DNA from: an uncultured Lachnospiraceae bacterium
Lineage (GTDB): Bacteria; Bacillota; Clostridia; Lachnospirales; Lachnospiraceae
Length of the DNA: 42,287 nucleotides
Direction of reading: 5' to 3'
Assembly (NCBI GenBank): GCA_902793845.1
Contig: CADBFE010000010.1
Span: 1 to 42,287, forward strand
This document shows, piece after piece, positions 19,969 to 33,350 of the stretch. The notes beneath the pieces are model-generated. The model was not told the DNA's origin, did no database searches, and was given only the letters and a program-made list of their open reading frames with translations. Both the position numbers and the translations under genes were made by a program. Each line of letters begins with the position of its first letter. Position 1 is the stretch's first letter.

Positions 19969-20003
19969 AGTTATTTTTTCAAATTAAAGTTGGAGAAAAG
20001 ATT

Positions 20004-22328
20004 ATGAACGATATCATTATAAAAACCAGAAATCTTACAAGCGAAGGAAAACTTTCCGAGGCTGAGGAATACCTTAACTCCTGCTATAAAAAAGCAAAGG
20101 AAGAAGGAAATGATTACACGCTCTTAACTGTGTTAAATGAGCAGGCAGGTTTGTACCGTGATATGGGAAAACATGGCAAAGCAGTTTCCTGCTGCCTTGA
20201 ATCAGAAAAAATTCTTGAAGAAAAGGGCGTAATCAACACAAAAGAAAGGGCAGCTTCCCTGCTGAACCTGGCCAATGCTTACAGAGCATCGGGGGATGCG
20301 GATGAAGCTTACGAGGCTTACAAAAAAGCATTATCAGTAATTGAGATATGCGGAGACGACAATCTGTACTCAAGCTATTACAACAATATGGCACTGCTGC
20401 ATCAGACAGCGGACAGGTTTGATGATGCAGCAGACTGTCTTGAAAAGGCACTCCGTATCGTGAGAGATGAAATGCATGATGAGATCAGATGTGCAATAAC
20501 TGAGACAAATCTGGCAGGCACATATTTAAGGCTTAAGAAAAAAGAAGAGGCAAAAGCAAATCTACTTGACGCTCTTAAAATATTCGGAGGCAGGACACCG
20601 TCTGATTTCCATTACAGCGCTGCCCTCTCTGCCATGGGAGACTTAAGTCTTTTAAACGGAGAGTTTGAAAAGAGTGTGATGTATTTCGAGATGGCACTCT
20701 CTGAGATAAAACTTCATATGGGAGAAAACGATTTTTACAAAATCGTCTCTGATAATCTGGATAACGCATACGAGATCCTGGCCAGAAAGAAAAGGTCAGA
20801 GGGTGAGGAGTGCACAAAGGAAAGTCTCAGAAATGTTAAGGGACTGGACCTGTGTGAAAAATATTACAGGGCATTTGGAGAGCCTGTTATAGAAAAGAAT
20901 TTTGGAAGTATACTGGACTATATTGCATGTGGTATGGCGGGAGCAGGATCCGAATGTCTCGGATACGATGATGATATCTCACCGGATCACGATTTCGGAC
21001 CGGGCTTTTGCATTTTCATAAATGATAATGTGTCTGAGGAAGATGAAAAGCGATTAAAGAAAATGTACGAACTCCTGCCAAAATCATTTATGGGAAAGGA
21101 ACGGCTCGAGACAGTTGAAGGCAGGGGCAGAGTCGGTGTAATCAGGGTAAAAGACTTTTTAAAGAGCGCCACCGGTTTTGACCATGTCCCCAAAGGCCCG
21201 GCTGAGTGGCAGTATACCGTTGATGAAAATCTGATCACTTTTGTAAACGGCAGGATATTTACCGACAGGTCAGGCTTTATGGGCATGCTCCGTAAGCATA
21301 TTAAGAAGGATCAGCCGGCCTATGTCCATTTGAAAAAATTAAGTATCCAGCTGGAACTGATGGCAAAGCACGGTCAGTACAGTTTTGAGCGGGCCCTTAA
21401 GAGATCTGATCTGACGGCGGCATTTATCGCAAAAGGCGAATTTTTAAAGGCGACAATGCGGGCAGTTAATCTGATGAACAGTAAATATGCTCCCTACGCA
21501 AAGTGGCTCCGCCGCTCCCTCGATGATATAAGCGGAACGGATAAAATAAAAAAACTGATCGACAAACTGTCAAAATCTGCCGTTTCAGAGAAAGATATCT
21601 CTGTCATAGAGGAGATATGCACATTGGTTAGAAACGGCCTTAAATCAAGGGGCCTCGCATATTCGGATGAGACTTTCCTGAAAGTTCAGGCCTATGAGAT
21701 ATCGGCACTGGCCATGAGGACACTTACGGCAGACCGTATCGTTGATCTTGAGTGGGACCTCTTTGACAAAGTTAAAAACGAGGGAGGCAGAGCGGACTGT
21801 CAGGACAATTGGGGAACCTTTTCGGTAATGAGGAGAAGCCAGTATTATACATGGCCGGAAGAACTGCTGACCACTCTTTTGGCAGACTTTGAAGAAAAAA
21901 CGAAAAACGGCAGAAATGTTATCACGGAAAAATACGGATACATGATGGAATCTACCGTTCCCGATGAATTCAAGGAGATAAAGGATAAACTCCCTGAAAT
22001 ACCGGAGCAGAAGAAACAGGTAATGGAGGCTATCATCGGTATACAGGTAGGCTGGATGGAGGAGTTTGCAAAAGGTCATCCAAAGATGGCCACAAATGCC
22101 AGGGCCATACATACCAAGGATGATACGCCTTATATGACATCTTATGAGACATATCTTAGGGGAGAACTGTCCACATATGATGATGAGACACTTAAGATGT
22201 ACGGTCAGTTCATAGTGACTCTTTATAATAACGGAGAGAATCTTGCAGAAAAGATCATGACCATCACATCATATTATTACGGATACGAGTCAGTGGAGGC
22301 GTGTGAAAAAGCGTTAAGTAAACTGTAA
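20004..22328 (+). CDS. TPR - DUF4037-like nucleotidyltransferase - DUF4125 fusion protein
   Basis: A 774-residue soluble protein in three parts. Residues about 1-275 are tetratricopeptide repeats (AASLLNLANAYRASGDADEA; YYNNMALLHQTADRFDDAAD). Residues about 285-560 carry AGAGSECLGYDDDISPDHDF followed by GPGFCIFIND, an acidic active-site signature that matches DUF4037, thought to have a nucleotidyltransferase fold, plus a helical tail with YAPYAKWLRRSL. Residues about 570-774 match DUF4125 (DLEWDLFDKVKNEGGRADCQ, RRSQYYTWPEELL, EKYGYMMEST). The function is unknown; the acidic cluster suggests a metal-dependent nucleotide chemistry and the TPRs a partner-binding role. It stands alone between a terminator and the K+ channel gene. 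Confidence 0.8.
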   Translation: MNDIIIKTRNLTSEGKLSEAEEYLNSCYKKAKEEGNDYTLLTVLNEQAGLYRDMGKHGKAVSCCLESEKILEEKGVINTKERAASLLNLANAYRASGDADEAYEAYKKALSVIEICGDDNLYSSYYNNMALLHQTADRFDDAADCLEKALRIVRDEMHDEIRCAITETNLAGTYLRLKKKEEAKANLLDALKIFGGRTPSDFHYSAALSAMGDLSLLNGEFEKSVMYFEMALSEIKLHMGENDFYKIVSDNLDNAYEILARKKRSEGEECTKESLRNVKGLDLCEKYYRAFGEPVIEKNFGSILDYIACGMAGAGSECLGYDDDISPDHDFGPGFCIFINDNVSEEDEKRLKKMYELLPKSFMGKERLETVEGRGRVGVIRVKDFLKSATGFDHVPKGPAEWQYTVDENLITFVNGRIFTDRSGFMGMLRKHIKKDQPAYVHLKKLSIQLELMAKHGQYSFERALKRSDLTAAFIAKGEFLKATMRAVNLMNSKYAPYAKWLRRSLDDISGTDKIKKLIDKLSKSAVSEKDISVIEEICTLVRNGLKSRGLAYSDETFLKVQAYEISALAMRTLTADRIVDLEWDLFDKVKNEGGRADCQDNWGTFSVMRRSQYYTWPEELLTTLLADFEEKTKNGRNVITEKYGYMMESTVPDEFKEIKDKLPEIPEQKKQVMEAIIGIQVGWMEEFAKGHPKMATNARAIHTKDDTPYMTSYETYLRGELSTYDDETLKMYGQFIVTLYNNGENLAEKIMTITSYYYGYESVEACEKALSKL

Positions 22329-22371
22329 AATAAAGGCATTTTGTGGTAAAATTTATATTCGGAGTAGTGTC

Positions 22372-23379
22372 TTGAAAAAGATTAAAAACAGAGTTTTTAC
22401 AATTATAGAAATCGGTGAAAAGGGAGATACGGTCAGCAATTTATTTGATTATTTTATAATGCTGGTCGTATTTGTGAATCTTGCAGCTTCTTTTTACTCG
22501 ACATTTGACGAGTCGGCACCTTATACCAATGTGATAGTGACCATAGAGTATGTCACAGCGATCATATTCAGTATTGAGTATGTCCTCAGGTTCTGGACAG
22601 CAGACCTTCTGTATCCGGGGAGCGGCATGGTAAAGAGCAGACTTAAGTTTGTTTTCTCATTTTACGGCATTGTAGATCTGCTCTCTTTTGCACCTGTATT
22701 TTTACCGGGAGTATCAATAGGCGGAGGTCTTATGGCAATCAGACTCCTAAGGACACTCAGAATGCTGAAACTGTTCAGGATCAATTCACAGCTTGATGCA
22801 TTTGGTGTGATCACCGGAGTATTAAAAGAAAAGAGGGATCAGATACTCTCATCCATCAGCCTCATTGTGATACTCATGCTGGCAGCGTCCATGGGTATTT
22901 ATTCTCTTGAACATGATGCCCAGCCGGAGCAGTACAGCAATGCTTTTTCAGGACTCTGGTGGTCTGTATCAACCATGCTCACCATAGGCTACGGTGATGT
23001 ATATCCCGTCACGATAGCCGGCAAGATTTTTACGATCATTATTTCATTCCTGGGCGTAGGTCTGGTGGCTATACCTACCGGTATCATAAGCGCAGGATTT
23101 GTCGAATATTACTCAGACCTTAAGTACAAGGAACTCTACGGGGATGAAAAGGCTCTCATGCTCTACGAGGTTGAGATCAGGGATAAACATGAATGGGTCG
23201 GAAAACAGATAAAGAATTTAAATATCTCAAAACAGGAAATAGTTGTCTGTATCGAGAGATCCGGAGAAAAGATAATACCGAGGGGCCAGACTGTAATAGA
23301 GAAAGGCGATATCGTATATATCTTTGATAAAGAGCAGGATGGCAAGGTCGGTACCATTAATATCAGGAAAACAATATAA
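22372..23379 (+). CDS. Voltage-gated-type potassium channel with RCK C-terminal domain
   Basis: A 335-residue six-helix Kv-type channel. S1-S3 lie at about 20-115, an arginine-rich S4 is IRLLRTLRMLKLFR, and the pore loop WWSVSTMLTIGYGDVYPV has the TIGYGD selectivity filter. After S6 (TIIISFLGVGLVAIPTGI) a cytoplasmic tail ends in a TrkA-C/RCK-C-like domain (EVEIRDKHEWVGKQIKNL ... IPRGQTVIEKGDIVYIF), likely a ligand-controlled regulatory piece. The start is a TTG at 22372 with GGAG seven bases upstream. It lies 43 bases after the TPR gene and 18 before udp; there is no visible terminator to separate it from udp. Confidence 0.93.
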   Translation: MKKIKNRVFTIIEIGEKGDTVSNLFDYFIMLVVFVNLAASFYSTFDESAPYTNVIVTIEYVTAIIFSIEYVLRFWTADLLYPGSGMVKSRLKFVFSFYGIVDLLSFAPVFLPGVSIGGGLMAIRLLRTLRMLKLFRINSQLDAFGVITGVLKEKRDQILSSISLIVILMLAASMGIYSLEHDAQPEQYSNAFSGLWWSVSTMLTIGYGDVYPVTIAGKIFTIIISFLGVGLVAIPTGIISAGFVEYYSDLKYKELYGDEKALMLYEVEIRDKHEWVGKQIKNLNISKQEIVVCIERSGEKIIPRGQTVIEKGDIVYIFDKEQDGKVGTINIRKTI

Positions 23380-23397
23380 AACGAGGAGGGTTACGTT

Positions 23398-24180
23398 ATG
23401 GCAATGCAAAACTATTCGGGGGAAAAGGATCTGCAGTATCACCTTCAGATAAGACCCGGGGATGTAGGTAAATATGTGATAATGCCGGGAGACCCGAAAA
23501 GGTGCGCAAAGATCGCAGAATATTTTGATGATGCAAAACTGGTGGCAGATTCAAGAGAATTTGTGACATACACAGGTTATCTGGACGGTGAAAAGGTCAG
23601 CGTCACAAGTACGGGTATAGGCGGACCGTCTGCATCCATCGCTCTTGAGGAACTCGTCAACTGCGGTGCGGATACATTTGTGAGAGTTGGTACATGTGGC
23701 GGTATAGAGATAAATGTGTGCGGCGGAGATGCCGTCATCGCAACAGGTGCTGTCAGAAATGAAGGTACGAGCCGGGAGTATGCTCCCATAGAGTTTCCTG
23801 CCGTTGCAGATATAGAAGTGACAAACGCACTTATTAAGGCAGCTAAAAAACTTGATTTTACATACCATGCAGGTGTGGTTCAGTGCAAGGATGCTTTTTA
23901 CGGACAGCACTGTCCGGAGAGAATGCCGGTGAGCTACGAGCTCTTAAATAAATGGGAAGCATGGAAGCGCCTCGGTGTAAAAGCATCGGAGATGGAGTCG
24001 GCAGCCATATTTGTAGCCGGAGCACATTTAGGCGTCAGATGCGGGTCGGTATTTCTCGTAGTCGGCAATCAGGAGAGACAGGCCCTCGGCATGGAAAACA
24101 ACATCTGCCATGATACGGAGGGTGCGATCAGGATCGGCGTGGAAGCCCTCAGGATAATGATTGCGGAAGATAAAAACTGA
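23398..24180 (+). CDS. udp: Uridine phosphorylase
   Basis: A 260-residue nucleoside phosphorylase I family enzyme that cleaves uridine (or another nucleoside) with phosphate to base and ribose-1-phosphate. It shows [20 protein letters not shown] with the phosphate-binding GDPx[31 protein letters not shown] with the RVGTxG motif, QCKDAFYG and the ribose-binding [10 protein letters not shown]. The Udp assignment over purine DeoD rests on the overall pattern and the partners; substrate preference is not proved. It starts a nucleoside catabolic cluster: deoB follows 23 bases and deoC one base later. A GAGGAGGG ribosome site precedes the ATG. Confidence 0.9.
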
Positions 24181-24203
24181 CAATATTTTAAGGGGTAAAT
24201 AAT

Positions 24204-25409
24204 ATGGGTTACAAAAAATATAAAAGAGTATTTCTCGTAGTTCTCGACTCACTTGGTATAGGTGCCATGCCCGACAGCGAAAAATACGGTGATGTGGGCG
24301 TCGATACATTCGGTCATATTGCAGAGAAGATGATGAGCGAAGAGGGCAGGTTTGACATCCCCAATCTTGTGAAGCTTGGCATAGGCAATCTCCATGATAT
24401 GGAGGGAGTATCAAAGACAGGTGCTCCCCTTGCAAAATACTGTGCCTTAAAGGAGAAGAGCCTCGGCAAGGATACCATGACCGGTCATTGGGAGATGATG
24501 GGACTTTATATCACAAAACCGTTTCAGACTTTTACCGACACAGGCTTTCCAAAGGAACTCATCGATGAGCTTGAAAAGAGGACAGGCAGAAAAATCATAG
24601 GAAACAAGAGTGCATCCGGTACGGTTATCCTGGATGAACTCGGAGAACAGGAAATTAATGAGGGTAAACTGATCGTCTATACATCGGCTGATTCTGTTTT
24701 ACAGATATGCGGTAATGAAGAGACGATGGGAGTTGATACTCTCTATAAATACTGCGAGATAGCCAGAGAACTCACCATGAAGGATGAGTGGAAAGTCGGC
24801 AGGGTAATAGCGAGACCCTACACGGGAAAGAAAAAGGGCGAGTTTGTCAGAACCGCCAACCGTCACGACTACGCATTAAAGCCAACGGGTTTAACGGCAT
24901 TAAATGCCTTAAAGGACGGGGGCTATGACTGTATCAGTATAGGCAAGATAAATGATATCTTTGTGGGTGAAGGCATCACCGATGCATATAAATCAAAATC
25001 ATCTGTCCATGGTATGGAGCAGACAATAGATGAAGCGAAAAAAGATTTTGAGGGTATATGTTTTACAAACCTTGTTGATTTTGATGCGCTGTGGGGACAC
25101 AGGAGAAATCCTATAGGGTATGGCAAAGAGATAGAGAACTTTGATAAAAAGCTCGGAGAGCTGTTGCCGCTTCTTAAAGAAGACGATCTGCTGATACTCA
25201 CTGCTGATCACGGCAACGATCCTACATATACGGGAACGGATCATACAAGAGAAAAGGTTCCGTTTATCGCATATTCTCCTTCATATAAGGAGGGAGGTGC
25301 CCTTAACGAGCAGGACACATTTGCAGTTATCGGAGCTTCGATAGCAGACAATTTCGGAGTTGAGATGCCGGAAGGTACCATAGGCCATTCCATTTTAGGA
25401 GATATATAA
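24204..25409 (+). CDS. deoB: Phosphopentomutase
   Basis: A 401-residue DeoB of the alkaline-phosphatase superfamily, converting (deoxy)ribose-1-phosphate to the 5-phosphate. Metal ligands and the active threonine appear in [18 protein letters not shown] and [13 protein letters not shown]; further marks are [32 protein letters not shown] and [20 protein letters not shown]. Full length with no defects. It takes the sugar phosphate released by the phosphorylase encoded just upstream and feeds DeoC. Confidence 0.97.
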
Positions 25410-25410
25410 G

Positions 25411-26055
25411 ATGACAAAAGAAGAAATATTATCAAGAGTCGACCACACATTATTAAAGCAGACATCCACCTGGGAACAGATAAAAAAGATACTCGATGAG
25501 GGCATGGAAAATCATACGGCAAGTGCCTGCATCCCTCCGTGTTTTGTAAAGAGAGCAAAGGAATATGTGGGAGACAGACTGCCCATCTGTACAGTCATTG
25601 GCTTTCCAAACGGAAACGTCACTACGGCGGTAAAGGTGTTTGAGACAGAGGATGCTGTAAAAAACGGAGCCGACGAGATAGACATGGTCATCAATATCGG
25701 CCTTGTAAAGGAAAGGGATTACAAGGCTGTCCTTGATGAGATTAAGGAAGTTCGGAAAGCGTGTGGCGGAAAACTGTTAAAGGTGATTATCGAGACATGT
25801 CTTTTGACGGAAGAAGAAAAGATAAAGATGTGTGAGGTGGTCACAAAATCAGGAGCCGATTATATAAAGACGTCCACAGGTTTCTCAGAAGGCGGAGCGA
25901 CATTTGAAGACGTGGCATTAATGAGAAAGCATTCGGGACCGGAACTTAAAATAAAGGCAGCAGGCGGTATAGCGACAGTACAGGATGCAGAAGAGTTTAT
26001 TAAGCTCGGGGCCGACAGACTGGGGACATCGAGGCTGATCGCACTGTTAAAATAA
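25411..26055 (+). CDS. deoC: Deoxyribose-phosphate aldolase
   Basis: A 214-residue class I aldolase splitting 2-deoxyribose-5-phosphate into glyceraldehyde-3-phosphate and acetaldehyde. DeoC marks: [57 protein letters not shown], the Schiff-base lysine in [12 protein letters not shown] (K153) and [20 protein letters not shown]. The ATG is one base after the deoB stop, with the ribosome site AGGAG inside deoB, so the two are coupled. It ends the udp-deoB-deoC cluster. Confidence 0.97.
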
Positions 26056-26081
26056 ACGGCAGAGTAGAAAAGGGGAAATTT

Positions 26082-27146
26082 ATGACGGGTGTATTCGTCA
26101 GTTACAGTTCAAAGGATTTGGATATCCTGACACCAATCGTCAGGATGATGCATAAAAATAATATACCTTTTTTTAAGGCACCTGAGAGTATACCCCAGGG
26201 ATCCAATTATGCAAAGGAGATCCCGGGCGCGATCAGAGAGTATAAGGTTTTTTTGCTGCTTATTTCAGGAGATTCCCAGAGATCCGCATGGGTCGCCAAG
26301 GAAGTCGAGTTTGCGATTAACAGCGGCAGCATGATCGTGCCGGTACAGATCACCAGGGTACCCCTTGATAATAAATACAGGCTGTATCTCTCCGATCTTG
26401 AGATCATTAAATATTATGAAAATCAAAATGACGGACTGCGCCAGCTTGAGATAAAACTAAAACAGCTGACCAGAAAGGATATATTCACATTTGATGAGGA
26501 TGTATCAGATGAGACAGAAGAAAATCAGGAAGCTGCCGATTATCCGGGGGATGACACGGGAGAACTGACCGGCGTCGAAAAAGAGCTTTTAGAGCTTAAG
26601 AGAAAAAAAGAAAAGAAGATGACGGGTATCATCAAAAACGTCTCAAAGTCTGAAAACGGAAAGGTGGCAAACCCGTTTACCGAAACAAAACAGGAGAAAA
26701 AAAGGACCCTGACGCCTCACAGGATCCAGGCAAGACGCCAGAATGCCGTATCTATGAATCACATTCCCGAGGAGTGTGAATACTGCAAGGGTGAACTCAC
26801 CATGTGCGGTAAGGGTGCGTATAAATGCGAGGAGTGCGGTAAGATCAGCTACGATTCTTTCCAGAAGATAAAAAACTTTCTGGATGAGCATGGTCCGACA
26901 CCGGCAGTAGAGGTATCGGCTGAGACGGGACTGCCCAAGGAGATGGTGGAATATCTGCTCCTTGAGGAACATCTTGAAATACCGAGATCGTCAAGTGTGA
27001 TGCTTGCCTGTCAGAACTGCGGAGCAGCAATCAGGAGCGGCAGACTGTGTGATATGTGTAAAAAGAGGGTACAGCTGGTAAAACCCATGGACCCCAAAGA
27101 GAAAAATGAGGCCAAATTCAGATACGCTTATCAGGATAAAAAATAA
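26082..27146 (+). CDS. TIR-domain protein with zinc ribbons and a YvyF-like helical module
   Basis: A 354-residue protein. Residues 1-135 form a bacterial TIR domain: GVFVSYSSKDLDILTPIVRM, PFFKAPESIPQGSNYA, FLLLISGDSQRSAWVAKEVE. The glutamate of the WxxxE-type motif (W70, E74), catalytic in NAD-cleaving TIRs, is present. Residues about 140-225 are a charged linker. Then C-x2-C pairs (CEYCKG, CEECGK) make a zinc ribbon, KIKNFLDEHGPTPAVEVSAE (followed by TGLPKEMVEYLLLEEHLEIP) makes a small helical HTH-like unit, and CQNCGAAIRSGRLCDMCKK a second ribbon. The last two parts resemble the flagellar-region protein YvyF. It may signal or bind nucleic acid; an immune role is possible but no partner gene is adjacent. 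It is 26 bases after deoC, probably by read-through. Confidence 0.8.
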   Translation: MTGVFVSYSSKDLDILTPIVRMMHKNNIPFFKAPESIPQGSNYAKEIPGAIREYKVFLLLISGDSQRSAWVAKEVEFAINSGSMIVPVQITRVPLDNKYRLYLSDLEIIKYYENQNDGLRQLEIKLKQLTRKDIFTFDEDVSDETEENQEAADYPGDDTGELTGVEKELLELKRKKEKKMTGIIKNVSKSENGKVANPFTETKQEKKRTLTPHRIQARRQNAVSMNHIPEECEYCKGELTMCGKGAYKCEECGKISYDSFQKIKNFLDEHGPTPAVEVSAETGLPKEMVEYLLLEEHLEIPRSSSVMLACQNCGAAIRSGRLCDMCKKRVQLVKPMDPKEKNEAKFRYAYQDKK

Positions 27147-27167
27147 TCTCATAAAAGATATCATATA

Positions 27168-27196
27168 TTGCCATTAACACGGTATACAGATATAAT
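27168..27196 (+). promoter_or_regulatory. Sigma-A promoter before the phosphodiester-glycosidase-like gene
   Basis: TTGCCA (27168-27173), 17-base spacer, TATAAT (27191-27196). The expected start is near 27203, about 29 bases before the ATG. Confidence 0.85.
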
Positions 27197-27231
27197 TCAT
27201 AAAGAAATAAATAGTTAAAGAGGAATGAAAA

Positions 27232-28326
27232 ATGGGAAAAAGGATTGGCAATATCGTCCTTAGAGTACTGATCGTAATACTGGTAACAGTTGTGATGCTT
27301 GTCGGAACGCTCTATCTGATGATATTTAAATTCAAGAACGGTCCGTCAGAATCAGCAAAGAATATGTTTATCACAACGATAATGGAAACGGGACAGCTCA
27401 AGTTTGTGGCATCCCTTGTATGCACACCGGAGGAGATAGCAGAGATAGTCGGAGCCAACGCCATGCAGGAGATGGAGGCTGATGTAGATACATCACTTAT
27501 CAGCATGAGCGGCAACACAGCAGAAGCGTCAGCCGGAGAATATACAGAGACGGAAGTCTTTGATGAAAACGGTATCAGGATGGTGGAGATATCAGGTCGA
27601 AGCTTTTTTGCAAAGATGCTGATAGTTAAGGATCCCTCTCAGGTCAAAGTCGGTACCACATATAACGGCGGCTGGGGCACATACGGAAAAGAACTTGATG
27701 AGATAGTAAGTGATGCCGGAGCGATAGCAGGTATAAATGGCGGAATATATGTTTCCACAGGTAATACCGGCGGACAGCCCATGGGAGTAGTCGTTCAGGA
27801 CGGCCAGATCACATATAACGCTCCCTATGATGCAAACGGTATGTATATGATCGGATTTAATAATGAAAATATTCTGATTGTCAAGGATATAAACGGTATG
27901 AGCGCATCTGAGTTTTCGGCTTATGTAGAATCAGACGGAATCAGGGATGCGGTAGCCTTCCAGGATGAAGCATCGGATGCTGACAACCATTTCGTACCCC
28001 TTATCATAAACGGTGAGCCCAGACAGCTCGACGGTCAGGGATCGGGAGCAAACCCGAGAACCGTAATCGGACAGAGATCCGACGGTGCAGTTCTCCTCCT
28101 TGTCACAGACGGAAGAGGTACATCGGGACACCTCGGAGCAACTGCATCAGACCTTATCGGTATCATGCAGGAGTACGGTGCGGTCAATGCGGCAAACCTT
28201 GACGGAGGATCGTCTTCAACAATGGTTTATAACGGAAACTGGGAGATGACATCAGTTACATTCTATTATCAGAATTCATCATGGAAACTGCCAACTGCAT
28301 TTGTGGTAATGCCTGCAGGGAATTAA
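27232..28326 (+). CDS. Membrane-anchored phosphodiester glycosidase family protein (NAGPA-like)
   Basis: A 364-residue protein with an N-terminal membrane anchor (about 8-30) and an extracellular NAGPA-type domain: GAIAGINGGIYVS, GQPMGVVVQDGQI, ANPRTVIGQRSDGAVLLLVT and the hallmark NLDGGSSSTMVYNG. Family members cleave GlcNAc-alpha-phosphodiesters or related sugar-phosphate linkages in cell-wall glycans or exopolymers; the substrate here is unknown. It begins a transcription unit with its own promoter and precedes a second single-span membrane protein by 26 bases, suggesting a cell-surface function for both. Confidence 0.9.
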   Translation: MGKRIGNIVLRVLIVILVTVVMLVGTLYLMIFKFKNGPSESAKNMFITTIMETGQLKFVASLVCTPEEIAEIVGANAMQEMEADVDTSLISMSGNTAEASAGEYTETEVFDENGIRMVEISGRSFFAKMLIVKDPSQVKVGTTYNGGWGTYGKELDEIVSDAGAIAGINGGIYVSTGNTGGQPMGVVVQDGQITYNAPYDANGMYMIGFNNENILIVKDINGMSASEFSAYVESDGIRDAVAFQDEASDADNHFVPLIINGEPRQLDGQGSGANPRTVIGQRSDGAVLLLVTDGRGTSGHLGATASDLIGIMQEYGAVNAANLDGGSSSTMVYNGNWEMTSVTFYYQNSSWKLPTAFVVMPAGN

Positions 28327-28352
28327 TATAAAAGCAATAGGAACTTTAAGTA

Positions 28353-29774
28353 ATGAACGGACTTAACAATAATGACCTTAATATGGTCGATCTGGACAGA
28401 AGAAACGACAGACCGGTAAAGAGAAAGACATCCGGAAACAGTAAGAGCAAAACGGGAAGTGCCAGGAGATCAACGGGAAGCTCAAGAAGGATAACCGATG
28501 AATACGGACACGGAAGGATTCCGGAGAGAAGAAGATCGGCAGATGAGCTGATGCACGGAGCCATTCCTCCCTCTAAAAAGAAAAAGAGAAAAGGCAAGAG
28601 GGGCAAGGCATACAGGAGAGAAAAGAGAAGATGGCAGAGATTCTGGAAGATACTTGCCATATATGCGGGAGTACTCCTTATCCTCTCGATAATATTCCTG
28701 ATCTATACAGACAGCTGTCTGAAAAAATATGAGAAATCCCAGTCGTCATACGCCATGGAAAATTATTTAAAGAAATTCAGCGAGGCGATTGGCAGCGGTA
28801 CGATTCCGGAGGGAATGAGTTTTGCCACAAGTGTGAGCGAGTTTGACAGTGCTGATATTATGTCATCATCATATCTGTCATACCTTCAGGGCAAGACATT
28901 GACTTATGATAAAGCACCCGACAGTTATATGACGGAGGCTCCTGTATATCTGATCAAGGCAGACGGAACAGATGTGGCCAGGGTTAAAATGGAGGGTACA
29001 AACGGACAGGTGATCCTGGCAATCCTTACTGTACTTGACTGGAATGTTACAGAGGTAACTCCCATATTCAGTATGGATACCCATGATTATACAATCACCG
29101 TACCGGATAATTATTCAGTAACTGTAAACGGTACACCTCTTTCAGATGCTTATCTGTCAGGAGAGACTGAGACAGTAGATCTCTTCCAGTATGCGAGAGA
29201 GTATGCTGACCTCCATGATATGAAGAAATATGTCATTACCGGAGTGATGTCCGATATATCCGTTGCGGTATATGACGGAGACGGCAACCAGGTAGAGTGC
29301 AATGTAAACGGATATGACTACAGTGCAGGATACCAGTCGATGGGAGAGATTCCGGAAGATTACAAGGATATGGCTCTTAACATGGCTGAGACATGGAGCC
29401 TTTTAATGACAAGAGACTTAAGCGGAACCAGCAACGGATTTTACACTCTTGCAGAGTATCTGATCGAAGGATCATATTACTACAAGATGGCTTATGACTG
29501 GGCAACCGGAATAGATATCACATTTACAAGTGCCCATACTCTCGGCAATCCGATATTTACAAATATCGTCGTGGATGATTATGTGAAATATACGGACAAC
29601 TGTTTCTCATGTCATATTTATTTTGACAAAGATATGTACCTGACCAGGACAGGAGAGACGGCCTACGATACGACGGATTCCACATTTATATTTGTCTACT
29701 ACGATGATTCCGATGACGGTGTGGACAATCCCCACTGGGCAATTGCGGATATGATAGCGAACACTTCAAACTGA
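28353..29774 (+). CDS. Single-pass membrane protein, unknown function
   Basis: A 473-residue protein. Residues 1-100 are cytoplasmic and very basic (Arg/Lys/Ser/Gly-rich; KKKKRKGKRGKAYRREKRR), then one membrane helix (about 108-128, ILAIYAGVLLILSIIFLIY) and an extracellular region of about 340 residues with no recognised domain, containing PVYLIKADGTDVARVKMEGT and, nearer the end, LAEYLIEGSYYYKMAYDWAT. The topology (basic inside, large outside) resembles surface or cell-wall-assembly proteins of Lachnospiraceae. The basic tail could bind nucleic acid or acidic lipids; that is a guess. It lies between the NAGPA-like gene and another unassigned gene, 26 and 43 bases apart, so the three are likely one operon. 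Confidence 0.7.
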   Translation: MNGLNNNDLNMVDLDRRNDRPVKRKTSGNSKSKTGSARRSTGSSRRITDEYGHGRIPERRRSADELMHGAIPPSKKKKRKGKRGKAYRREKRRWQRFWKILAIYAGVLLILSIIFLIYTDSCLKKYEKSQSSYAMENYLKKFSEAIGSGTIPEGMSFATSVSEFDSADIMSSSYLSYLQGKTLTYDKAPDSYMTEAPVYLIKADGTDVARVKMEGTNGQVILAILTVLDWNVTEVTPIFSMDTHDYTITVPDNYSVTVNGTPLSDAYLSGETETVDLFQYAREYADLHDMKKYVITGVMSDISVAVYDGDGNQVECNVNGYDYSAGYQSMGEIPEDYKDMALNMAETWSLLMTRDLSGTSNGFYTLAEYLIEGSYYYKMAYDWATGIDITFTSAHTLGNPIFTNIVVDDYVKYTDNCFSCHIYFDKDMYLTRTGETAYDTTDSTFIFVYYDDSDDGVDNPHWAIADMIANTSN

Positions 29775-29817
29775 TTTACAGATAAAATAAACTTATATTC
29801 AGGAGGGTTACGACTAA

Positions 29818-30567
29818 ATGAGTGAAGAAATGATTAACGAGAATTCAGACATGGAGAACAACAGCTCCGAGGGTAAATCCAGAGAGGAGATAGAAAAGGA
29901 GTTTTTCGCCAAAATTGCGGAAGGCAGAAAAGACGATCCCCTTATCGGAGTAAAGCTCGGATCGGATGATATCTTTAAATCCCTGATGAAAATAGCCAGG
30001 GATGACAAGAATGTGGTCAATGTACATGATGTGACACTCTACGCAGCCGGTCTTGCGGGATACGCCTGCCAGGCTTCATGTATGGAGAAATATATCGTCA
30101 GGGAAAAACTGCAGTTTAATGATAAGTTTCATCTTATTATGACGGCAAGGGGTGAAAAGTATATCTTTGCCGACTGTATCAACGAGAAGCTCTTTACCGA
30201 TAAACATTCAGTATGGAATCTTGTCAGCGGTGTTTATAAAAAGATGTATCCGTCTCTTAAGGTTCCGTCGCCCGCTCCTTTTATAAAGAAAGTTGCAGAG
30301 TCGGTAGGAGATCCTAACTATATGGTATGCGGAGAGCAGACACCGGAGGCTCTTACGGAGATGATAGCTCTTGTATGGAAAAACATCTACGTAAAGATGA
30401 AGAAATACTGTCCCAATTCTGAGGAGTGGCCTACTCTTTATGCTATGGTTCTCCAGAAATGTCTCGTTGCCACAAAGGGTATGATCGATCCCAAGATAGC
30501 GATGAATCTGATTGCTGAGATAGCAGTATTTTCTTCAAAAATCTATATAGGAGATTTTGGTCAGTAA
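29818..30567 (+). CDS. Conserved hypothetical protein
   Basis: A 249-residue soluble protein I do not recognise. The first about 30 residues are acidic and disordered (SEEMINENSDMENNSSEGKS), the remainder is a mixed helical/strand domain with EEIEKEFFAKIAEGRKDDPL, VVNVHDVTLYAAGLAGYACQ and YMVCGEQTPEALTEMIALVW. There is no signal peptide or membrane segment. A strong AGGAGGG ribosome site precedes the ATG. It follows the single-pass membrane protein by 43 bases and precedes the GH3 enzyme by 20, so its transcription is probably shared with one or both. Confidence 0.7.
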   Translation: MSEEMINENSDMENNSSEGKSREEIEKEFFAKIAEGRKDDPLIGVKLGSDDIFKSLMKIARDDKNVVNVHDVTLYAAGLAGYACQASCMEKYIVREKLQFNDKFHLIMTARGEKYIFADCINEKLFTDKHSVWNLVSGVYKKMYPSLKVPSPAPFIKKVAESVGDPNYMVCGEQTPEALTEMIALVWKNIYVKMKKYCPNSEEWPTLYAMVLQKCLVATKGMIDPKIAMNLIAEIAVFSSKIYIGDFGQ

Positions 30568-30587
30568 ATCTCCCGAAAGGATGATGT

Positions 30588-33350
30588 ATGAATATTGAAA
30601 AAGTGATACTTGATTGGAATGAATATATCGAAGCTGCCAGATCGGTTGTCAGCGAAGGATGTGTTCTTCTTGAGAATAATGGGACACTGCCGCTTGAAAA
30701 AGGGGCAGTTGTTTCGATTTTTGGGCGCATACAGACCCATTATTACAAGAGTGGTACAGGATCAGGGGGTATGGTCAACGTAACCCATGTAGTGGGTATT
30801 CCGGAGGGTCTTAAGCAAAGTGGTCATGTCACCGTAAATGAAGAACTCGAAAATATCTACAAAAAATGGGAAGAGGAAAATCCCTTTGATGAAGGTCTTG
30901 GATGGGGTACTGAGCCCTGGTCACAGCCGGAGATGGAACTGACGGATGACATAGTCTCAGACGCATCATCAAAATCTGATGTGGCAATCGTCATCATAGG
31001 CAGAACAGCAGGAGAGGATAAAGACTTCTCTGATGTGGCCGGTGCGTACAAGTTGTCTGACGCAGAGGAGGATATGCTCCGCAGAGTCAGAAAGCATTTT
31101 GACAAAATGGTGGTCCTCTTAAATGTTGGATCCCTTATGGATCTGAATACGATAAACGATATCGGACCTGATGCCCTTATGGTTGTATGGCAGGGCGGTA
31201 TGATCGGAGGACTCGGTACTGCAGATGTCCTTACAGGAAAGGTAAATCCTTCCGGTAAGCTTACGGATACCATAGCATACGAGATAACAGATTATCCCTC
31301 AACAGAAAACTTTGGAGATCCTGTTAAAGATTATTATGCGGAAGATATCTATGTAGGATACAGATACTTTGAGACTTTTGACAAATCAAAAGTCAGATAT
31401 CCGTTCGGATATGGCAAATCATACACAGAGTTTGAACATACAAAAGGTGAGTTTACCGTTAATGAAAATGAGCGGACTTTAACGGTATCATGCACTGTAA
31501 AAAATACAGGTGCTGTTGCCGGTAAGGATGTTGCCCAGTTTTATGTATCTGCACCCCAGGGGTTGCTCGGTAAACCTGAAAAAGTATTGGTGGCATATAA
31601 AAAGACAGGCATGCTGGCCCCCGGAAAAGAAGAGAAAATCACTGTGACGGTTCCCTTTGACAGATTTGCTTCTTTTGATGATGCGGGAGTCACCGGATAC
31701 GAGAGCTGCTTTGTACTTGAGGCAGGAAAGTATACAGTATATGAAGGTAAAAATGTAAGGGATACATACAGCGAAGGCTCATTTGAGTTAAAAGAAAATA
31801 CTCTGATAGAGAAGCTCTCAAAAGCTCTTGCACCAATGGAGAGCTTTAAGAGAATGAAGGCTTTTGAAAATACAGAGGGAACATTATCCGTAAAATATGA
31901 GGATGTACCTGTATCTGATATTGATGAAAAAAAGAGACGCATCGATAATATGCCGGCGGAGATCCCTCAGGATTTTACAGCGAGATATTCCTTAAAAGAT
32001 GTTCTCTCCGGAAGCATAGACATGGAACAGTTTATAGCCAGACTCTCCGATGACGATCTGGCATGTATAGTCAGAGGCGAGGGTATGGGATCAAGCCTTG
32101 TGACTGCAGGTACGGCAGCTGCCTTTGGAGGAGTATCCGATTATTTAAGAAAGATGGATATACCTGCGGTATGCTGTGATGACGGCCCGTCAGGTATGCG
32201 TCTTGACTCGGGAGCCACGGCTTTCAGCATGCCAAACGGAACCATGCTTGCAAGTACATTTAATCCGGATATCATAGAGAGGATGTACGCTTTTACATCT
32301 CTTGAGATGATATATAACAAAGTTGAGTGCCTTTTGGGGCCGGGAATGAATATCCACAGAAATCCCCTTAACGGAAGAAACTTTGAGTATTTTTCGGAAG
32401 ATCCGTATCTGAACGGAACAATAGCCTCCGCCATGCTTAAGGGACTTCATAAATACGGCTCTGACGGCGTGGCAAAGCATTTTTGCTGCAACAATCAGGA
32501 GCTTGGCAGACAGGCATGTGACAGTGTGGTATCCGAAAGAGCTCTCCGTGAGATATACCTTAAGGGATTTGAGATTGCCGTAAAAGAAGGTGGATGCAAA
32601 GCCTTTATGACCACATATGCCCAGGTCAATGGTATGTGGACTGCCGGCAATTATGATTTAAATACCAGGATCCTCAGGGATGAATGGGGCTTTAAGGGTA
32701 TAGTGATGACTGACTGGTGGGCCCAGGTCAACGACCGTGGCGGTGAGCCGTCGAAAAACAATACGGCAGCAATGGTCAGAGCCCAGAACGATCTGTATAT
32801 GGTTACTGCAAATGCGGCAATGAATTCTGCCGGCGACAATACACTGGCTCAGTTAAGTGAAGGAAAGTTAAACAGGGCAGAACTGCAGCGGTGTGCCATG
32901 AACATCTGTGAGTATGCCATGAATACCATGGCCATGAAGAGGCTCTGTCATAATGATATTAAGGTTGAGATAGCGGGCAGAGTCATTGAGGAGGACGCTT
33001 TCGATATCGAAAATGCTGAATATCTCGTATTAAAGGGCAATATAACAGTGAGCCTTAAGGACAAGGAATCAAAGGCCGGAACAAACTACTACATCCCTCT
33101 TGATATCCAGGACCTTGGTATGTACGATATCTCGGTTACCGCATCCTCTATGCTCGGAGAGGTAGCCCAGCTTCCCTGCACCCTGTATTACACAGGAGTA
33201 CCGTTTCTTACATACACATTTAACGGAACCGGAGGAAAAGAAGTGACCATAACAAAATCCATGGATTTCCATAACAGGATGGCGGTCATCAGGCTTAATG
33301 TAGCCAAGAACGGACTTGACCTCGACAGGATAGAATTTAAAAAACAGTAA
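30588..33350 (+). CDS. Family 3 glycoside hydrolase, domain-permuted beta-glucosidase
   Basis: A 920-residue GH3 with domains in reversed order: the C-terminal alpha/beta sandwich comes first (about 15-245: EGCVLLENNGTLPLEKGAVV, DVAIVIIGRTAGEDKDFSDV, VWQGGMIGGLGTADVLTGKV, NPSGKLTDT), then a fibronectin-III-like domain (about 265-400: YVGYRYFETFDKSKVRYPFG) and last the TIM barrel (about 455-760: CDDGPSGMRLD, GPGMNIHRNPLNGRNFEYFS, GVAKHFCCNNQE, with the nucleophile aspartate D709 in GIVMTDWW). This permuted type is known in rumen and gut clostridia. It lacks a signal peptide, so it acts inside the cell on imported cello- or xyloglucan oligosaccharides. The YicI-type enzyme downstream supports that. 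Confidence 0.95.
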   Translation: MNIEKVILDWNEYIEAARSVVSEGCVLLENNGTLPLEKGAVVSIFGRIQTHYYKSGTGSGGMVNVTHVVGIPEGLKQSGHVTVNEELENIYKKWEEENPFDEGLGWGTEPWSQPEMELTDDIVSDASSKSDVAIVIIGRTAGEDKDFSDVAGAYKLSDAEEDMLRRVRKHFDKMVVLLNVGSLMDLNTINDIGPDALMVVWQGGMIGGLGTADVLTGKVNPSGKLTDTIAYEITDYPSTENFGDPVKDYYAEDIYVGYRYFETFDKSKVRYPFGYGKSYTEFEHTKGEFTVNENERTLTVSCTVKNTGAVAGKDVAQFYVSAPQGLLGKPEKVLVAYKKTGMLAPGKEEKITVTVPFDRFASFDDAGVTGYESCFVLEAGKYTVYEGKNVRDTYSEGSFELKENTLIEKLSKALAPMESFKRMKAFENTEGTLSVKYEDVPVSDIDEKKRRIDNMPAEIPQDFTARYSLKDVLSGSIDMEQFIARLSDDDLACIVRGEGMGSSLVTAGTAAAFGGVSDYLRKMDIPAVCCDDGPSGMRLDSGATAFSMPNGTMLASTFNPDIIERMYAFTSLEMIYNKVECLLGPGMNIHRNPLNGRNFEYFSEDPYLNGTIASAMLKGLHKYGSDGVAKHFCCNNQELGRQACDSVVSERALREIYLKGFEIAVKEGGCKAFMTTYAQVNGMWTAGNYDLNTRILRDEWGFKGIVMTDWWAQVNDRGGEPSKNNTAAMVRAQNDLYMVTANAAMNSAGDNTLAQLSEGKLNRAELQRCAMNICEYAMNTMAMKRLCHNDIKVEIAGRVIEEDAFDIENAEYLVLKGNITVSLKDKESKAGTNYYIPLDIQDLGMYDISVTASSMLGEVAQLPCTLYYTGVPFLTYTFNGTGGKEVTITKSMDFHNRMAVIRLNVAKNGLDLDRIEFKKQ

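Follow-up and report, generated by a model that had tools for sequence, protein, structure and literature searches.

A TIR domain fused to a YvyF-like ribbon module and its association with a nucleotide cyclase operon in Lachnospiraceae

A fusion of a TIR domain with a C-terminal ribbon-HTH-like-ribbon module related to the flagellar-region protein YvyF is found in 13 genomes, all of one family, and in most of these the fusion gene belongs to a compact set in which a receiver-class III nucleotide cyclase and a protein here termed X come after it. The architecture of the fusion, the conservation of its residues, the grouping of its TIR domains in one clade, its association with the operon and its patchy spread are established directly, and the operon context consisting of cyclase, X and diguanylate cyclase is new; no description of a TIR-ribbon-cyclase-X operon was recognised in the open-licence PMC literature. 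The member from which the analysis started is encoded on a stretch of 42,287 nucleotides of an uncultured Lachnospiraceae bacterium (assembly GCA_902793845.1, contig CADBFE010000010.1), referred to as the window. We give about even chances to the reading that the fusion belongs to a cyclic-nucleotide-coupled TIR signalling or defence module, with the TIR domain as an NAD+-cleaving enzyme that would be gated by the YvyF-kind module and, in most carriers, would constitute one arm of the operon.

Architecture and conserved residues of the TIR-ribbon protein

The open reading frame of 354 aa starts with ATG, is preceded by a purine-rich stretch and occupies exactly positions 26082-27146 of the plus strand (Table 1). 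The initial annotation had recognised in its product a TIR domain, a conserved glutamate at position 74 and a C-terminal half resembling YvyF, all of which hold upon closer analysis. The Pfam model TIR_2 matches residues 4-122 at E=3.2e-14 with 53.9 bits, above its curated cut-off of 28, and the Pfam model ThsB_TIR matches the same domain at 9.1e-6. Equally, a profile of eight family TIR domains retrieves 15 PDB sequences at E <= 0.01, including Cat1 (1.4e-7), TIR-1, AbTIR and SARM1. E74 is located within a W-V-x-K-E motif and pairs in the alignment with the glutamate of 'WVHKE' in TIR-1; the glutamate at the aligned position of SARM1 is the catalytic one. W70, V71, K73 and E74, together with the cysteines of the first ribbon, are present in 13/13 fusions, the pairwise identities of which go down to 32%. 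Judged from these residues and from the matches to solved TIRs with NADase activity, the TIR-ribbon protein is a putative NAD+-cleaving enzyme.

Table 1. Features of the window around the TIR-ribbon gene
Feature	Position	Strand	Basis
Uridine phosphorylase	23398..24180	+	NCBIfam TIGR01718, 315 bits vs 280.3 cut-off
deoB, phosphopentomutase	24204..25409	+	NCBIfam TIGR01696
deoC, deoxyribose-phosphate aldolase, 26 bp upstream of TIR gene	25411..26055	+	NCBIfam TIGR00126
TIR-linker-ribbon-HTH-like-ribbon protein, 354 aa	26082..27146	+	ORF; Pfam TIR_2; NCBIfam YvyF; 13-member family
TIR domain, residues 4-122	26091..26447	+	Pfam TIR_2; profile matches to solved TIRs Cat1, TIR-1, AbTIR, SARM1
E74 codon, putative catalytic glutamate	26301..26303	+	13/13 fusions; aligned to TIR-1 WVHKE glutamate
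Linker of low conservation, residues 123-230	26448..26771	+	Alignment of fusions
Putative zinc ribbon 1, residues 231-253 (C232, C235, C249, C252)	26772..26840	+	Four Cys in 13/13 fusions
Predicted HTH-like segment between ribbons, residues 258-305	26853..26996	+	Within YvyF match
Putative zinc ribbon 2 (C310, C313, C323, C326)	27009..27059	+	Invariant alignment columns; 11/13 fusions
NAGPA-type phosphodiester glycosidase, downstream of TIR gene	27232..28326	+	Pfam PF09992

The C-terminal module is matched by the NCBIfam model of YvyF, TIGR03826, over residues 245-343 (E=2.2e-15), with 56.8 bits versus a cut-off of 124.15, and all four fusions scored, the window protein included, obtain 57-62 bits below this cut-off. 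As in YvyF, two CxxC...CxxC ribbons enclose a middle segment in the window protein and ten other fusions; the fusion module differs from YvyF by its score below the cut-off, its linkage to a TIR domain and the lack of flagellar neighbours at the loci read. The module is thus related to YvyF and is not called a member of that family. Ribbon 2 with its four cysteines is present in 11/13 fusions, as the proteins of genomes G125 and G212 stop early with one ribbon each. The stretch between the ribbons, where T282 is kept in 13/13 and G283 and P285 in 12/13 fusions, is probably HTH-like. The best matches of a module profile among PDB sequences are ribosomal L37ae ribbons, at E of about 0.003 and over the first ribbon only. 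Binding of zinc and of nucleic acid would be the predicted properties of such a module.

TIR domains can work through contact alone. A TIR domain devoid of enzyme activity that recruits the cyclase, combined with a ribbon module that binds nucleic acid or RNA polymerase, would agree with this property and with the L37ae matches, which are compatible with nucleic-acid contact. However, the invariance of E74, W70 and their neighbours in all 13 fusions at such low identities speaks against a mere scaffold, which we consider unlikely.

Distribution and phylogeny of the fusion

The fusion was traced in overlapping genome draws at family, genus, class and phylum level, which together yielded the 13 cases; record L003 (Lachnospiraceae bacterium UBA3643) and the G778 contig, with the same match positions, were counted once. 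As it recurs in 13 genomes, the joining of the TIR domain and the module is not a chance event. A search with the full-length protein at 1e-10 hits 86 of 250 family genomes, and the majority of the matches listed cover only the C-terminal module. A TIR profile detects 18 of 397 family genomes at 1e-24, among which nine form a separate group at 1e-59 or better, ahead of the next match at 5.5e-41; the YvyF-like module is absent from the six proteins read (two of G288 and one each of G234, G237, G261 and G154) among ten matches between 5e-41 and 1e-24, the reading having left out G219, G021, G134 and G096. In the genus, 17 of 35 genomes match at 1e-15, and reading of seven matches identified the module in five (window, G778, G780, G782 and G795), the other two being G786 and G804 (contig C27). 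On class level, six of 391 genomes match at 1e-30, with the YvyF-like module in none of the five non-window proteins, of which the G409 protein combines the TIR match with another cysteine-rich stretch at its end. The phylum search recovered one of 398 genomes at 1e-42, the window itself. The resulting spread is patchy, with nine of 397 genomes in the family and five of 35 in the genus.

In phylogenetic analysis, the fusion TIR domains form one clade versus 11 other TIR domains (support 99/98), the rows of G795 and one outgroup being long. In the tree of modules, standalone copies group together (96/97) and the fused copies need two changes; one change is sufficient in 40% of bootstrap trees, and a single origin of the fused modules stays within what this tree allows. 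Carriage of the fusion by plasmids or phages was considered and dismissed: the G334 protein, searched at E up to 1e-10, matched none of 72,556 plasmid records and none of 50,697 phage records, and of 86 stretches of viral contigs that matched a pattern in a search with the fusion-alignment profile, none was confirmed.

Two other arrangements were observed in passing. At L087:7964-8710 (G288), a TIR domain is joined to a cold-shock domain (TIR_2 7.3e-21, CSD 6.8e-20), which is another combination of a TIR with a nucleic-acid-binding domain. On contig C27 of the window genome (L137:1-2733), the gene of a DHH/DHHA1 protein whose C-terminus resembles X adjoins that of a protein with a different TIR-like stretch at its start, as named by reading.

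An operon with a receiver-cyclase, protein X and a diguanylate cyclase

Apart from the window and G778, all fusion loci (11/13) have the gene for a receiver-class III nucleotide cyclase and then the gene for X downstream of the TIR gene and on its strand, with gaps of at most 73 bp or overlapping ends in each of the 11; in G014, cyclase and X are one open reading frame of 837 aa. Upstream of the TIR gene, seven of the 11 operon loci encode a GAF-GGDEF diguanylate cyclase with a GGEEF motif, which in five of the seven is itself preceded by an AP_endonuc_2-type gene. G200 has a hybrid histidine kinase at this place, while G125, G782 and G795 have other genes. Domains were assigned with Pfam on the G334 set and by alignment and reading at the remaining loci. 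That the TIR domain might participate in NAD-based signalling, as the initial annotation had suggested, has become likelier with a class III cyclase at 11 of 13 loci and a diguanylate cyclase in addition at seven of these; the cleavage of NAD+ itself is deduced from conserved residues.

The receiver domain of the G334 cyclase is matched by Pfam at 7.4e-6, below the cut-off, and on reading the metal aspartates of the cyclase are present. All 11 cyclases have E and N at the base-selecting positions, a guanylate-like combination. In guanylyl cyclases, Glu replaces Lys at the first of these positions with the second position varied, according to PMC4215837. By its residues, the operon cyclase is predicted to produce cGMP. 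PADLOC, run on single operon proteins, matches its PycC models to the G334 cyclase at best at 4.3e-22, a similarity which may reflect shared class III ancestry only.

Protein X scores above the cut-off of no Pfam or NCBIfam family, in none of ten X proteins scanned does Pfam detect a DHH domain, and searches against PDB sequences gave no match. On the other hand, X of G125 shares 34% identity over 243 aa with a DHH/DHHA1 protein from that genome, in the C-terminal part of the latter. Among known proteins, X comes closest to the DHH/DHHA1 phosphoesterases, from which it differs by the missing DHH domain. Among 397 family genomes, a close X (7.8e-98 or better) is present in eight, which coincide with the fusion carriers when the window is set aside; the next family match, at 3.3e-55, lies in an open reading frame of about 520 aa, and the two proteins of this size class that were scanned, one of G125 and one of the window genome, are both of the DHH/DHHA1 type. 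Equally, in the genus, three of 35 genomes have a close X (4.8e-83 or better; next 6.4e-55), namely the fusion carriers G780, G782, where X is cut by the contig end, and G795. In the family and genus searches, close X occurs exactly in the fusion carriers outside the window pair.

Standalone modules and a possible flagellar connection

The YvyF-like module also occurs on its own. The window genome has a further YvyF-like gene, next to one of the ComF type (L002), which at 99.9 bits is below the TIGR03826 cut-off, and 14 loci of standalone modules were read in context. With gene names assigned by reading, standalone ribbon-HTH-ribbon genes directly follow a purD-like gene in L040, L041 and L044 and precede NUDIX-like and pyrimidine genes in L042 and L047. 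Again named by reading, in L041, L044 and L051 the module clusters with SH3-type and clpC-like genes, two of these loci having also a radA-like gene.

A flagellar link had been proposed in the initial annotation, and its support is indirect. FlhA is encoded in 23/23 genomes tested (13 with the fusion, nine with a standalone module, and G777), a count without a module-free baseline and as such suggestive only. On the other hand, no flagellar neighbours were seen at the 13 fusion loci, the G782 and G014 loci being short fragments of contigs and the reading of the window covering 20000 to 33000.

These observations touch a physiological interpretation, in which the operon would be a second-messenger hub that makes lifestyle, for instance the transition from motile to sessile, depend on c-di-GMP, cGMP and the state of NAD+, the YvyF-like module providing the connection to flagellar or gene control. 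The GAF-GGDEF neighbour at seven of 11 loci and the receiver domain on the cyclase, below the Pfam cut-off as it is, would fit, as would the relatedness of the module to a flagellar-region family and the presence of FlhA in all genomes tested. However, the FlhA count comes without a module-free baseline, the loci read are free of flagellar genes, and patchy spread is unusual for core regulation, which together leave such a hub unlikely.

Evolution and possible mobility of the operon

Among the 13 carriers, identities of FlhA and of the TIR protein do not go in parallel. They show a Spearman coefficient of 0.06 (p 0.62, the pairs being not independent), and a Mantel comparison of the distances in 11 carriers gives 0.03 (p 0.45). 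Within the operon, cyclase and X are tightly correlated (Mantel rho 0.86, p 0.0005); for TIR versus cyclase and TIR versus X, the values are 0.32 (p 0.09) and 0.25 (p 0.16), and this weak tracking of the partners goes against a strictly co-inherited trio.

Two genome pairs are informative. G177 and G200 carry the operon at the same site, beside asnA and asnS, with identities of 84% for asnA, 89% for asnS, 92% for FlhA and 67% for a NYN-type gene versus 56% for TIR, 54% for cyclase and 46% for X, which in this one pair suggests fast change of the operon or its replacement in place. In the single pair G334 and G780, which belong to different genera, all five operon proteins are 85-89% identical versus 72% for FlhA, which points to transfer between genera. 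Fast evolution and transfer may be general traits of the operon.

Comparison with known systems and the question of defence

The nearest known layout is Pycsar, in which a class III cyclase is located beside a TIR gene as in 11/13 fusion loci, the window not being among them; the pairing of PycC with PycTIR is described in PMC11224242. BcPycC has the acidic residue D94 at the base-selecting position (our own count based on PMC11224242), and the fusion-locus cyclases likewise have an acidic E. In contrast to Pycsar, no cyclic-nucleotide-binding domain is matched by Pfam in the three fusion proteins and ten X proteins scanned, the fusion-locus cyclase has a receiver-like domain and the guanylate-like E/N, the operon adds a diguanylate cyclase and X, and the TIR protein adds a C-terminal ribbon-HTH-ribbon. 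As the Pycsar receptor domain was not found, the operon is not filed as Pycsar. The TIR family and the W-x-x-x-E motif are shared with Thoeris ThsB, Cat1 and AbTIR, and the PADLOC SAVED-TIR and ThsB models match the fusions weakly; in contrast to these, a ThsA or SAVED partner was not seen on reading and a cyclase operon is present instead. TIR and cNMP-cyclase domains have been reported in other conflict systems as well (PMC7159879).

The operon might accordingly be imagined as an anti-phage abortive system, where infection would act through the receiver-cyclase and a cyclic nucleotide on the TIR-ribbon effector with depletion of NAD+ and arrest of growth. In favour of such a function, the cyclase-TIR pairing resembles that of Pycsar (PMC11224242), and the spread is patchy (nine of 397 in the family, five of 35 in the genus) with signs of fast change and transfer. 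One locus, that of G212, has candidate defence genes in its vicinity: genes matching the PDC-S23 and MkoA models (L038:962-5292) precede the operon at a distance of approximately 2 to 3 kb. However, the three fusion proteins scanned lack a CRP-like receptor domain, receiver domain and diguanylate cyclase are not parts of described Pycsar, and the collections of phages, plasmids and viral contigs gave no match. Furthermore, the flank genes named by NCBIfam (four genes at three loci) are housekeeping genes, the others having been read by eye with the broad PADLOC flank scan covering G212 only. An abortive system is possible, at a chance well short of even. As to defence versus physiology, the patchy spread with its apparent mobility speaks for conflict; the presence of a diguanylate cyclase, of a receiver-like domain and of a YvyF-like module speaks for physiology.

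The window locus and its nucleoside-salvage neighbours

In the window, and in the same order in G778, the TIR gene lies in the succession uridine phosphorylase-deoB-deoC-TIR-NAGPA, from which the initial annotation had derived a relation between nucleoside salvage and NAD breakdown. This relation is not sustained as a general function, as the context is restricted to the window and one sister among 13 loci and as deoC of G777 (79% identical) is directly followed by NAGPA without a TIR gene. The salvage link is thus lineage-specific, and two histories would account for it, a gain of the TIR gene in the lineage of G000 and G778 or its loss from G777.

No orthologue of the operon cyclase or of X was found in the window genome, which is 94.93% complete, so the window protein is without such a partner. 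Contig C11 of this genome was inspected as a candidate for the missing operon and rejected: its cyclase is of the CHASE2 type with K and T at the base-selecting positions and matches in the cyclase domain only, and its GGDEF protein has a metallo-beta-lactamase domain. The locus in question (L064:7491-11022), with a CHASE2-class III cyclase followed by a metallo-beta-lactamase-GAF-GGDEF protein, represents a second pairing of messenger enzymes, without a TIR. ThsA was found neither among the neighbours read nor by PADLOC on five neighbours in the window. A promoter-like site is located between TIR and NAGPA (27168-27196, 11/12 matches), in a scan with 17 such sites in total, close to the shuffle mean of 13.0. 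Further upstream in the window (20004-22328), a 774-aa protein with TPR repeats, DUF4037 and DUF4125 lies ahead of an ion-channel/TrkA-C protein.

The branch to the window pair is long (2.11), which together with the missing partners fits an orphan TIR gene in this lineage. One might go further and regard the gene of the window species as decaying or repurposed, with nothing to say on nucleoside salvage, in line with the long branch, the partners not found and the deoC-NAGPA neighbourhood of G777 without TIR. On the other hand, the reading frame, E74 and all eight cysteines are intact in the window protein and in its 95% identical G778 copy, and we regard decay or repurposing as a tentative, rather doubtful explanation.

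A proposed mechanism and its implications

In the signalling or defence module that we consider about evenly probable, the C-terminal ribbon-HTH-ribbon module would control the activity or the placement of an NAD+-cleaving TIR enzyme. The operon would comprise a sensor, frequently a GAF-GGDEF diguanylate cyclase and once a hybrid histidine kinase, the TIR-ribbon protein, the receiver-class III cyclase and X. Upon a signal, the cyclase would form a cyclic mononucleotide, cGMP as judged by its residues, and this nucleotide, or X acting with it, would switch on the TIR domain with consumption of NAD+ or production of an ADP-ribose signal. The ribbon module would keep the TIR enzyme off, or would anchor it on nucleic acid or on a motility factor. 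The orphan gene behind deoC in the window lineage is probably a remnant that has become decoupled, or else an NADase recruited on its own.

More speculatively, and with a probability that we set rather low, a previously undescribed, mobile and fast-evolving three-messenger module of flagellated Lachnospiraceae could be envisaged, placed between motility signalling and phage defence. The messengers made by this one operon would be c-di-GMP, a cyclic mononucleotide of the guanylate-like kind and a signal derived from NAD. The TIR domain would be gated by the YvyF-like zinc module rather than by a cyclic-nucleotide receptor, and X, a DHH relative that lacks the catalytic half, would serve as a nucleotide sensor or as an antidote.

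Should this reading of the operon be right, NAD-signalling by TIR would be connected with a class III cyclase driven by a receiver and with a diguanylate cyclase, and no known cyclic-nucleotide receptor would take part. If true, this would constitute a new way of gating a TIR enzyme and equally provide testable functions for the YvyF-like ribbon-HTH-ribbon module and for protein X, the roles of which we have not found described.
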